The notes under the pieces: generated by a model
The model's input: only the letters and a program-made list of their open reading frames with translations
Databases searched by the model: none
Told to the model about the DNA's origin: nothing
Shown here: positions 38,800-42,069 of the stretch, piece by piece
Layout of the letters: the number at the start of each line of letters is the position of its first letter
How positions within the stretch are numbered: position 1 is the first letter of the stretch
Position numbers and translations under genes: made by a program
Assembly (NCBI RefSeq): GCF_002024165.1
Contig: NZ_MWQN01000001.1
Coordinates: 1,922,001-1,986,000 of the forward strand
Direction: 5' to 3'
From: Embleya scabrispora
Lineage (GTDB): Bacteria; Actinomycetota; Actinomycetes; Streptomycetales; Streptomycetaceae
DNA: 64,000 nt

Positions 38800-40428
38800 C
38801 TACGCGCCGTCCGGACCCTCGGTGTGCCGTACACCGGGGGTCAGGCCCGCCTTGAGCAGTCCGTAGGTGTACGCGTCCTCCAGGGCCTGCCACGACGCGG
38901 CGATCACGTTCTCCGCGACACCGACGGTGCTCCACTCCTGCTTGCCGTCGGTGGTCTCCACCAGCACGCGCGTGATCGCGTCGGTGCCGTGCCGGCCCTC
39001 CAGCAGCCGGACCTTGTAGTCCATCAGCTCGAACGTCGCGAGCTGTGGGTAGATGCGCTCCAGGGCCAGCCGCAGCGCGCGGTCGAGCGCGTTGACCGGG
39101 CCGTTGCCCTCGCCGGTCGCCACGATCCGCTCGCCCTTGGCGTGGAGCTTCACCGTCGCCTCGTTGACCGGGATTCCGTCGCCACGCTGCTCGCTGATCG
39201 CGCGCCACGACTCCAGGGTGAAGAACCGCGCCCGGCCCAGGCTTTCGTCCCGCAGCAGCAGTTCGAACGACGCGTCGGCCGCCTCGTAGGTGTAGCCCGC
39301 CGCCTCGCGCTCCTTGACCTGGTTGACCACCCGGCCGACCAGGTCCTTGTCGTCGGAGAGGTCGTAGCCCAGCTCGCGGCCCTTGAGTTCGATCGAGGCG
39401 CGGCCGGCCATGTCCGAGATCAGCATGCGCATGTCGTTGCCGACCCGGGCCGGGTCGATGTGCTGGTACAGGTCGGGGTCGACCTTGATCGCGGACGCGT
39501 GCAGGCCGGCCTTGTGCGCGAACGCGGACACGCCCACGTAGGGCAGGTGGGTGGACGGGGCGAGGTTGACCACCTCGGCGATCGCGTGTGAGATCCGCGT
39601 CATCTCGCGCAGCTTGCCCTCGGGCAGCACGCGCATGTCGTGCTTGAGCTCGAGGTTTCCGACCACCTGGAACAGGTTGGCGTTGCCGACCCGTTCGCCG
39701 TAGCCGTTGGCGGTGCACTGGACGTGCGTGGCGCCGCCCTCGACGGCCGCGAGGGTGTTGGCCACCGCGCAGCCCGTGTCGTCCTGCGCGTGGATGCCGA
39801 GGCGGGCTCCCGTGACCGCGTGCACCTCGGTGACGATTTCGCGGACCCCGGTGGGCAACATGCCGCCGTTGGTGTCGCACAGCACGACCACCTCGGCGCC
39901 CGCGTCGTGCGCGGCGGCGACCACGCTCAGCGCGTACCGCGGGTTGGCCCGGTAGCCGTCGAAGAAGTGCTCGCAGTCGACGAACACCCGACGGCCCTGC
40001 GCGCACAGGTGCGCGACGGTGTCCCGCACCATCTCCAGGTTCTCGTCGAGCGTGGTGCGCAGCGCGAGCGAGACGTGCTTGTCGTGCGACTTGGCCACCA
40101 GGCACACGACCGGCGCGTCGGAGTCGAGCAGGGCCTGCACCTGGGGGTCGGCGGCGGCGGTGGTGCCGGCCTTGCGGGTCGAGCCGAAGGCGACCAGGAC
40201 GGCGTTGACCAACCGCAGTTCGTCCTTGGCCCGGCGGAAGAACTCGGTATCGCGCGGCACCGCGCCGGGCCAGCCGCCCTCGATGAAGCCGACGCCGAAG
40301 TCGTCCAGATGGCGGGCCACGGTGAGCTTGTCGGACACCGTGAGGTTGATGCCCTCGCGTTGTGAACCGTCCCGGAGCGTGGTGTCGAAGACGTGGAAGG
40401 CGCTCGGGTCGGTCGTCGTGGGGTGCAT
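38800..40428 (-). CDS. cimA: (R)-citramalate synthase
   Basis: 542 aa. HMGL-like barrel with FDTTLRDGSQREGINL near residues 12-27, FIEGGWPGA, the metal-binding HAQDDTGCAVAN, and a C-terminal LeuA-type allosteric dimer domain. Condenses pyruvate and acetyl-CoA to citramalate, opening a threonine-independent route to isoleucine. ATG at 40428 with GGGAG 6 bases upstream; the ATG at 40440 overlaps that site. Preceded by a leader peptide and attenuator. Confidence 0.95.
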   Translation of the reverse strand: MHPTTTDPSAFHVFDTTLRDGSQREGINLTVSDKLTVARHLDDFGVGFIEGGWPGAVPRDTEFFRRAKDELRLVNAVLVAFGSTRKAGTTAAADPQVQALLDSDAPVVCLVAKSHDKHVSLALRTTLDENLEMVRDTVAHLCAQGRRVFVDCEHFFDGYRANPRYALSVVAAAHDAGAEVVVLCDTNGGMLPTGVREIVTEVHAVTGARLGIHAQDDTGCAVANTLAAVEGGATHVQCTANGYGERVGNANLFQVVGNLELKHDMRVLPEGKLREMTRISHAIAEVVNLAPSTHLPYVGVSAFAHKAGLHASAIKVDPDLYQHIDPARVGNDMRMLISDMAGRASIELKGRELGYDLSDDKDLVGRVVNQVKEREAAGYTYEAADASFELLLRDESLGRARFFTLESWRAISEQRGDGIPVNEATVKLHAKGERIVATGEGNGPVNALDRALRLALERIYPQLATFELMDYKVRLLEGRHGTDAITRVLVETTDGKQEWSTVGVAENVIAASWQALEDAYTYGLLKAGLTPGVRHTEGPDGA

Positions 40429-40489
40429 GGGTTCTCCCATCGGTCAGAAATGGCGGGCCCGCGCGCGGGTGCTCGCCGCATGGATGGCG

Positions 40490-40527
40490 CGGCAAACAAA
40501 AAGACCCCTCGCGGTCGCGAGAGGTCT
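40490..40527 (-). terminator. Attenuator hairpin and T-run upstream of cimA
   Basis: Stem AGACCTCTCGCG/CGCGAGGGGTCT (40502-40527, 11 of 12 pairs) followed on the minus strand by TTTTTGTTTG (down to 40490), about 60 bases before the cimA start codon and 25 bases after the leader-peptide stop. An intrinsic terminator facing the gene it precedes is the mark of transcription attenuation. Confidence 0.8.
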
Positions 40528-40551
40528 GCGTGCGGGCGGTGGGCGGTTCGC

Positions 40552-40617
40552 TCACCCCTTGTGGGGGGATCGGCCCGTTGCCGGCACGCTGCGGCTAATA
40601 ATGAGCCACTGCTGCAT
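40552..40617 (-). CDS. Leader peptide of the cimA attenuator
   Basis: 21 codons, MQQWLIISRSVPATG..., with Leu-Ile-Ile at codons 5-7 and Val at 11, then TGA. No ribosome binding site; a CAAAAT -10-like hexamer (40626-40631) ends 8 bases before the ATG, so it may be leaderless. Position, branched-chain codons and the following terminator support ribosome-mediated attenuation. Confidence 0.72.
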   Translation of the reverse strand: MQQWLIISRSVPATGRSPHKG

Positions 40618-40809
40618 GGTTCGGAATTTTGGCACACTCGGCGGCGCGTGGTCGGGCGGTCTCAGCATGTGGTCGGTACGGATTTTTGTTTTGCCCACCC
40701 GCTCCACCCGTTGCGTCAGGTGGACGAGCTGCGGACTACTGCGGAGACGGCGCCCGCCACCACCGAGCCGAACGGGGCCGCCCCCGGAGGCTGCTGCGGA
40801 TCCGGCCGC

Positions 40810-40888
40810 TCCCCGGCGCGTCAGCGCCCACGAGGTGATCGTCGACCGGTGATCGACGAGCGTGCGAGGAGAGCGGCCGGAGGCCGCC
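40810..40888. repeat. Dispersed repeat, copy A (downstream of ilvE)
   Basis: Shares two blocks with 43881-43946: a block starting TCCCCGGCGCGTCAGCGCCC and a block GCGAGGAGAGCG-CCGGAGGCCGCC. Both copies lie just after the 3' end of an amino acid gene (ilvE here, serA there). The GGCC-rich part is self-complementary. The rest of 40618-40941 holds the cimA leader promoter and no gene. Confidence 0.6.
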
Positions 40889-40941
40889 GCGGCGTAGCCG
40901 CACCGCGCGCAGCGCGGCTTTCCAGAGCGGCCGGAGGCCGC

Positions 40942-42069
40942 CTAGATCCTGTGGGTCCAGCCGTGGGTGTCCTCTGCGCGGCCGGTTTGGATGTCGACCA
41001 ACGCCTTGCGCAGTTCCATCGTGATCGGGCCTGCCTCGCCCGTGCCGACCGTCCAGTTCGCGGTGGTGGACTTGACCGAGCCGACCGGGGTGATCACCGC
41101 GGCGGTGCCGCAGGCGAAGACCTCGGTGAGGGTGCCGTTCGTGTTGCCCTCGCGCCAGTCGTCGACCGAGATCTGCGCCTCCTCGGCGGCGTAGCCGCGG
41201 TCGGCGGCCAGCCGCAGCAGCGAGTCGCGGGTGATGCCGGGCAGCAGCGAGCCGGTCAGGCGCGGGGTGACGATCCGCGCGTCCCTGCCCTCCCCGTACA
41301 CGAAGTACAGGTTCATCCCGCCCATCTCCTCGATCCAGCGACGCTCCACCGCGTCCAGCCAGACCACCTGGTCACAGCCCTGCTCCAGGGCCTGGGCCTG
41401 GGCGACCAGGGACGCGGCGTAGTTGCCGGCGCACTTGGCCGCGCCGGTGCCGCCGGGCACCGCGCGCACGTACTCCTGGGAGAGCCAGACCGAGACCGGC
41501 TTGACGCCGCCCGCGAAGTAGGGGCCTGCGGGCGAGGCGATCACCACGAACAGGAACTCGTTCGAGGGCCGCACGCCGAGTCCGACCTCGGTGGCGAACA
41601 TGAACGGTCGGATGTACAGGCTCTCCTCGGGCGCGCTGGGCACCCAGGCGACGTCCTGGCGGATCAGCGCGTCCACCGCGGCCACGAACAGGTCCTGGGG
41701 CAGTTCCGGCATGGCCAGGCGGCGCGCGGAGTGCTGGAAGCGCTCGGCGTTGGCGTAGGGCCGGAAGGTGGCCACGCTGCCGTCGGGGCGGCGGTAGGCC
41801 TTGAGCCCTTCGAAGATGGACTGCGCGTAGTGCAGCGTCATGTTCGCGGGGTCGATGTCCAGGGACGCGTAGGGGGTGAGCTGCGCGTCGTACCAACCGC
41901 GTCCGGCGCTCCACCTGATCGTCACCATGTGCTCGGTGAACACGCGGCCGAAGCCCGGGTTCTCCAGGCGTGTGGCGCGCTCGGTGTCGCTCAGCGGGTG
42001 CGCGGTGGGCTTGAGGTCGATCGACAGGGATGCCTGGAGGGCGGGCTCCTGTGGGGCGGCAGTCGTCAT
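40942..42069 (-). CDS. ilvE: Branched-chain amino acid aminotransferase
   Basis: 375 aa fold-type IV PLP enzyme. FEGLKAYRRPDG, YIRPFMFATE, the PLP Lys in GTGAAKCAGNYAASL and GTLTEVFACGTAAVI. It performs the last step of Leu, Ile and Val synthesis. ATG at 42069; the ribosome binding site is weak (GGACGAG). The intergenic gap to leuB (244 bp) contains a short CGTCGAC-N7-GTCGACG hairpin at 42273-42293. Confidence 0.96.
   Translation of the reverse strand: MTTAAPQEPALQASLSIDLKPTAHPLSDTERATRLENPGFGRVFTEHMVTIRWSAGRGWYDAQLTPYASLDIDPANMTLHYAQSIFEGLKAYRRPDGSVATFRPYANAERFQHSARRLAMPELPQDLFVAAVDALIRQDVAWVPSAPEESLYIRPFMFATEVGLGVRPSNEFLFVVIASPAGPYFAGGVKPVSVWLSQEYVRAVPGGTGAAKCAGNYAASLVAQAQALEQGCDQVVWLDAVERRWIEEMGGMNLYFVYGEGRDARIVTPRLTGSLLPGITRDSLLRLAADRGYAAEEAQISVDDWREGNTNGTLTEVFACGTAAVITPVGSVKSTTANWTVGTGEAGPITMELRKALVDIQTGRAEDTHGWTHRI

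Follow-up and report, generated by a model that had tools for sequence, protein, structure and literature searches.

A probable isoleucine-sensing attenuator with adjoining hairpins before the citramalate synthase gene cimA of Embleya scabrispora and other actinomycetes

The spacer between ilvE and the citramalate synthase gene cimA in Embleya scabrispora raises the question of whether cimA is governed by a leader that senses the position of a ribosome and, if so, by what kind of switch. It lies in what we call the window, the whole 64,000-nucleotide stretch of DNA analysed here, on whose minus strand leuB, ilvE, the spacer and cimA follow one another in this order. The original prediction, made from the letters of this stretch, had read a 21-codon leader with Leu-Ile-Ile codons, a GC-rich hairpin shortly after its stop codon and a T tract, all facing cimA, as a leader-peptide attenuator. 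We found each of these parts on the minus strand and the downstream gene to be the one named (Table 1), and we conclude that the element probably controls cimA by ribosome-mediated transcription attenuation in response to charged tRNA-Ile, with a conserved helix, P1, as its antiterminator. If true, this would explain how antibiotic producers regulate the citramalate route to isoleucine, and it would offer a single element whose removal could raise cimA expression. Intermediates of the isoleucine pathway also feed branched fatty acids and polyketides.

Read 5' to 3', the spacer carries a TGAGACC box, a -10-like hexamer, the 21-codon ORF (uORF) with its ATT ATT, and an 11-bp hairpin followed by a T tract. 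The uORF opens with an ATG at 40617 and closes with TGA at 40554-40552, with CTC ATT ATT at 40605-40597, and the terminator stem, of 11 pairs around a GACC loop, begins 24 nt past that stop codon. The cimA ORF opens at 40440, and its second ATG, about 65 nt past the T tract, is the likelier start because a GGGAGA box precedes it. The region 40640-40430 folds with a z-score of -3.30 (0 of 200 shuffles were as good). P1, present in the minimum-energy fold of the window and recognised as conserved through comparison, has its 5' strand inside the uORF, beginning 7 nt past the last Ile codon. The ORF and hairpin that had delimited the feature thus stand, and P1 has to be added to them; likewise, the leader and terminator of the predicted switch hold, and the antiterminator that the prediction lacked has its candidate in P1. 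The same spacer also contains two exact copies of AGAGCGGCCGGAGGCCGCC at 40870-40942, with one further copy in the whole genome, and, on the plus strand at 40681-40693, GATTTTTGTTTTG, which resembles the T tail of the attenuator on the opposite strand and which, by eye, is missing from the spacer of E. hyalina (L002).

Table 1. Parts of the putative cimA attenuator and the gene that follows it, in window coordinates.
Feature	Position	Strand	Basis
TGAGACC box, upstream of the leader promoter	40658..40664	(-)	conservation of GAGAC
-10-like hexamer CAAAAT, 8 nt before the uORF start codon	40626..40631	(-)	hexamer scoring, 127 loci
uORF/leader peptide MQQWLIISRSVPATGRSPHKG*, probably leaderless	40552..40617	(-)	reading frame and in-frame conservation
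Control codons ATT ATT (Ile-Ile)	40597..40602	(-)	Ile codon counts in 127 loci
P1 helix, 5' strand GCGTGC-C-GGCA, last base unpaired in the window	40579..40589	(-)	alignment, double changes
P1 helix, 3' strand C-GCC-C-GCACGC, flush with the terminator	40528..40538	(-)	alignment, gap counts
Intrinsic terminator, 11-bp stem 40527-40502, then TTTTGTTT	40494..40527	(-)	hairpin; pairing in 36 sequences
cimA, citramalate synthase, likely start 40428	38800..40440	(-)	TIGR00977, 632.6 bits against a cut-off of 450

We compared 130 regions upstream of cimA, in 127 of which the leader was readable (one, L113, stops short of the leader and is outside the uORF and P1 counts; in L126 and L129 the P1 strand was positioned manually). 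That a uORF was assigned in all 127 is true by construction, because the assignment demanded an Ile codon near P1. The stricter combination of a promoter-like hexamer, a start codon and an in-frame Ile-Ile near P1 was present in 111 of the 127 loci and in none of the 127 sequences of any of 50 shuffled sets. When the start codon was set by the hexamer alone, the ATTAT motif was in frame with it in 51 of 51 distinct leaders, 7 loci without a hexamer and 5 without ATTAT being left out of this count; as such conservation is absent from the shuffles, chance is excluded. A short ORF with codons for the end product of the pathway, in all 51 leaders isoleucine, is what an attenuator is expected to have. 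Two Ile codons are found in 114 leaders, one in 10 and three in 3, the last of them separated from P1 by 1-11 nt (by 7 or 8 nt in 108 of the 127), and they are written ATT in 215 of 247 cases, compared with 2 of 1464 in the cimA genes of 80 named loci.

The assigned uORF starts 6-8 nt after the best hexamer in all 127 loci (6 nt in 106, 7 nt in 16 and 8 nt in 5), and this hexamer reads CAGACT in 74 of them; the uORF is probably leaderless, and transcription would start next to its start codon. Of 121 distinct upstream regions, 107 have GAGAC no more than 75 nt upstream of the uORF, where shuffles predict about 15, and in 106 its first base lies at -44 to -46 relative to the uORF start. The TGAGACC box is possibly the site of a regulator or part of the promoter; NdgR was considered as its binder and rejected, as the 15-bp motif printed in the section of PMC4340878 drawn on here differs. 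The hairpin could also be an ordinary terminator, accompanied by a promoter between ilvE and cimA and by a small ORF of no consequence, and it does follow ilvE on the same strand in the window. Such a reading is hardly credible in view of the in-frame ATT codons of all 51 distinct leaders tested, found in none of the shuffles, of the covariation of P1 described below, and of the conserved promoter-like region upstream of the uORF, which places the terminator between a promoter and cimA.

Comparison narrows the control codons of the predicted leader from Leu-Ile-Ile to Ile-Ile: the residue preceding the Ile pair may be L, M, T, V, S, P or Q, and, as judged from these sequences, the sensor would be Ile alone, with Leu not conserved. 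Past the Ile codons, the frame varies by lineage over nearly the same RNA (GSRRAGPQ, GSSAPVRSGH, or G followed by a stop), and since the reading frame is free there, it is the RNA, not the peptide, that is conserved. The comparison across Streptomycetaceae that had been suggested as a check returned conserved Ile codons and a conserved terminator. Conservation of the leader as a peptide was rejected, as third codon positions before the Ile codons are not the most variable (entropies 1.36, 0.94 and 1.06 over 33 distinct leaders), so that only the Ile codons seem to matter. The length of 21 codons is shared by the window and E. hyalina only, its nearest relative (with a CimA that is 99% identical), the other two genomes of the genus having leaders of 15 codons. 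A hairpin, P0, with the Ile codons in its loop was also considered and rejected (mean -5.62 against -5.55 kcal/mol for shuffled sequences, with 25 of 60 shuffled sets as low, in 62 leaders).

The P1 helix and the terminator are both supported by comparison. In an alignment of 36 of 39 sequences (A1; L026, L073 and L108 were left out), 96.5% of the P1 cells are paired, with both-sided changes at 6 of its 10 pairs, as are 97.2% of the cells of the terminator stem, and when the partners are shifted by 1-3 columns, the paired share over all helices falls from 96.9% to 30-60%. Class-wide, 13 of 21 pairs show double changes, including 6 of the 10 P1 pairs, and 0 of 500 shuffles reach as high, in an alignment of 40 matches that was fitted to the covariance model, holds a few rows from genomes that also went into that model and includes one row that is a partial antisense match to a terminator. 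As in known attenuators, the intrinsic terminator lies between the leader ORF and the structural gene; its 5'-arm motif or a variant, in a pattern widened to variants noticed by eye, precedes 128 of 130 cimA genes, L119 and L122 being without it. P1 and the terminator abut: no nucleotide separates them in 112 of 116 distinct cimA loci, the rest having a gap of 1 or 3 nt, and none does in 28 of 39 class matches, where the gap is otherwise 1 nt. In 26 of these 39 class matches (alignment A2, L171-L206 leaders) the uORF ends in TAG, which touches the base of P1; the stop codon is TGA in 2 and neither of these in 11, and the choice of TAG may be structural. A T-box or other known RNA was rejected, as Rfam, T-boxes and riboswitches included, gave no match up to E = 10 in 40430-40700 and, in the whole window, only tRNAs at gathering scores.

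In attenuators of the E. coli trp type, a leader peptide with control codons is followed by a terminator, the position of the ribosome is the sensor, and antiterminator and terminator share a strand. The ribosome-sensing parts of the cimA element are alike, but P1 and the terminator share no base, either in the alignment or in the folds, and the element fails this classical test of strand sharing; its nearest counterparts are the attenuators with adjacent hairpins at actinobacterial ilvB genes. In the sections of the reports drawn on here, the "fast" attenuator of Corynebacterium glutamicum ilvBNC and the ilvB-II motif likewise have a uORF start beside the transcription start and control codons for branched-chain amino acids (PMC11857589, PMC10272879), and the antiterminator and terminator hairpins of ilvBNC are neighbours, as they are here (PMC11857589). 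Unlike in the cimA element, where the pairs of P1 and the terminator do not overlap in the alignment and zero bases are shared, the ilvBNC hairpins have a boundary trinucleotide, GCC, in common (PMC11857589), and the codons are Leu/Val with ilvB as the target, instead of Ile only with cimA (PMC11857589, PMC10272879). Table 4 of a study of S. lividans leader peptides (leuL1, leuL2, ilvL, trpL and others) also reports control codons, with two leaders called leaderless and leuL2 followed by a terminator, but none of the eight in this part of the source lies at cimA (PMC8079986). In agreement with the original prediction, which knew of none described for cimA, we found no cimA attenuator in the open full-text literature searched, broader topics being judged by title among the matches listed. 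For SCO5529, which we take to be cimA of S. coelicolor, the same literature yielded, by title, only a paper on Lon protease. A term look-up in the main text returned neither citramalate nor cimA for one study (PMC2965389) and no citramalate for another (PMC8269248), which reports 96 novel premature transcription units in its supplement, where cimA may already be listed.

Sequence and comparison provide the parts of a putative switch, namely the uORF, its in-frame Ile codons, P1, the terminator hairpin, their geometry and the link to cimA, and these would work together as follows. RNA polymerase would start at or beside the uORF start codon, and a ribosome would load at the leaderless 5' end. 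In the presence of ample isoleucine, it would translate as far as the stop codon and cover the 5' strand of P1, P1 would not form, and transcription would terminate before cimA, near 40494-40502. With isoleucine short, it would stall on the two ATT codons, its leading edge not quite reaching P1; the helix would then form and, flush with the base of the terminator, would keep the latter from completing, so that the polymerase would read into cimA, which would be induced on starvation.

We folded 117 distinct loci with the ribosome-covered RNA removed (a footprint of 13 nt counted from the start of the A-site codon, a length taken as general background; the sets of cimA loci overlap in organism, and distinct sequences number 117 for folding and 116 for the gap count). 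P1 was above 0.5 in 114 of the 117 loci when the first Ile codon occupied the A site and in only 59 when the last one did, while a ribosome on the stop codon covered the 5' strand of P1 in all 117; by computation, P1 is a second structure that forms or not according to where the ribosome stands. At equilibrium, the terminator was above 0.5 in 117, 117, 117 and 114 of the 117 loci in the four ribosome states, with or without P1. Before its 3' arm is made, the 5' arm of the terminator pairs upstream with a mean of 0.38 when the ribosome is at the stop codon and of 0.03 and 0.22 when it is stalled, which in these models is the wrong direction for a classical competitor. The switching step is one that we infer, because P1 and the terminator share no base: if cimA expression is to increase as isoleucine declines, P1 has to be the antiterminator, and, with no shared base and no covarying base-sharing partner, we propose that the abutment itself may hinder completion of the terminator stem within the polymerase.

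It is also conceivable, if unlikely, that the element is an isoleucine attenuator whose true antiterminator is a base-sharing structure that our folding missed, with P1 serving as a scaffold or pause hairpin. The candidates would be the apical loop of P1 or the segment past the stop codon, pairing with the 3' arm of the terminator as in the Corynebacterium ilvB-II motif, which is drawn that way in the part of PMC10272879 drawn on here, and many loci do have ACCCC-like stretches between the P1 strands that are able to pair with this arm. However, folding of the 117 loci revealed no base-sharing antiterminator, and in 114 distinct loci the pairing energy averaged -9.92 kcal/mol for own and -10.00 kcal/mol for swapped partners (229 of 300 permutations as low), with 17 of 100 shuffled middle segments as low. 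A pseudoknot between loop and terminator was rejected as the antiterminator for this lack of covariation between own and swapped partners.

Less probable still is a reversed role, in which P1 protects the terminator or pauses the polymerase in favour of termination and expression needs a ribosome to break it. P1 and the terminator do coexist in minimum-energy folds, and in classical attenuators a hairpin in the leader favours the terminator, but P1 is covered most by a ribosome at the stop codon, a position reached with plentiful isoleucine, so that a protector would have cimA expressed at the wrong time. The precedent of Mycobacterium tuberculosis ilvB1 also points the opposite way (PMC13236596). 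In the sections of that report drawn on here, which include reporter support, a ribosome at the stop codon of the ilvB1NC uORF masks the antiterminator and stalling at the control codons frees it, and a change of control codons abolished induction; the codons are LVVI and the gene is ilvB1, unlike in the cimA element, and the likeness of the two drawn here is one of logic (PMC13236596).

For an attenuator with P1 as its antiterminator speak the in-frame Ile codons, the over-use of ATT, the covariation of P1, the ribosome geometry, the abutment and the linkage to cimA, and also the recurrence of the same architecture before ilvB, ilvA, leuA and leuS, with Val/Ile, Ile or Leu codons. Against it stand the folding of the terminator in all ribosome states, the direction of the upstream pairing of its 5' arm, the formation of P1 in about half of the loci with the last Ile codon in the A site, the 10 of 127 leaders that have a single Ile codon, and older work on S. 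coelicolor, as summarised in the part of PMC1262725 drawn on here, in which codon changes in the ilvB leader were without effect and mutations of this leader did not fit simple attenuation; the same part states that, upstream of genes from amino-acid pathways beyond those it lists, conserved structures were not seen.

The association with cimA extends over the class. A covariance model built from the 36 sequences finds the element in 157 of 296 genomes sampled across the class (threshold E = 0.001), and cimA is present in 236 of these 296. The element is a structured RNA that is missing from Rfam 15 and would be present in more than half of the sampled actinomycete genomes. A match lies 7-213 nt upstream, on the same strand, of at least 111 of 150 cimA genes, a lower bound in that the comparison spans the 150 model matches and 150 cimA genes listed (of 236 genomes with cimA), that L220 and L221 carry the element by eye and were missed by the model, and that G175 and G260 also have model matches. 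Around further matches, 30 of 40 stretches hold cimA. With leader, terminator and position at cimA kept across Streptomycetaceae and well beyond, the predicted reading as a leader-peptide attenuator is supported. A wider sample of the phylum gave matches in 28 of 198 genomes, of which 18 lie outside the class and score more weakly (best E 5.8e-11).

Some of the 39 listed cimA genes without a listed match lack the element, among them L212-L216, five genes of one family (f20) that were inspected by eye. In the three genomes of the same family that do have a match (L183, L210 and L211), the element instead precedes a threonine-dehydratase-like gene, and its leader contains one ATT; the protein of L183 has its best match to threonine ammonia-lyase models, at 301 bits below the curated cut-off of 496, and matches Pfam PALP above its cut-off, and the downstream genes of L210 and L211 were assigned by eye. 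This family would represent a natural swap of the attenuator between two routes to 2-oxobutyrate. Elsewhere, the element precedes ilvB (L170 by test, L202 and L203 by eye), leuA (L204 by test) and leuS (L198 by test, L169 by eye), in leaders with Val/Ile or Leu codons. In the genome of E. scabrispora itself, the leuS leader, with Leu codons, matches the cimA model with E = 1.3e-7 (L198 and L169 being leuS leaders), and the leuS matches suggest an architecture common to leader-peptide attenuators of actinobacteria.

The nearly invariant junction of 0-1 nt between P1 and the terminator raises the question of whether a hairpin can stop an intrinsic terminator by abutting alone. Tentatively, and with rather less confidence than in the attenuation of cimA itself, we consider it possible that a class-wide family of elements, studied here chiefly at cimA and present also at ilvB, ilvA, leuA and leuS, switches without a shared strand, a ribosome-gated abutting hairpin blocking the terminator in the exit channel of the polymerase by its position alone, and that one family of organisms has this element at its threonine-dehydratase gene and not at cimA.

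A second full copy of the element is found in the genome of E. scabrispora (L168:2403-2519, corresponding to G000:C2:103902-104018; leader MRRRAIITDGVPTPG*; model E = 9.6e-23). It precedes an ORF of 106 amino acids with a sub-threshold match to the ACT domain (16.2 bits, cut-off 27), and the gene after this ORF is of the GoxA/LodA type, below cut-off. The second copies in G150 and G231 (L205 and L186) also precede small ORFs, which look similar by eye.
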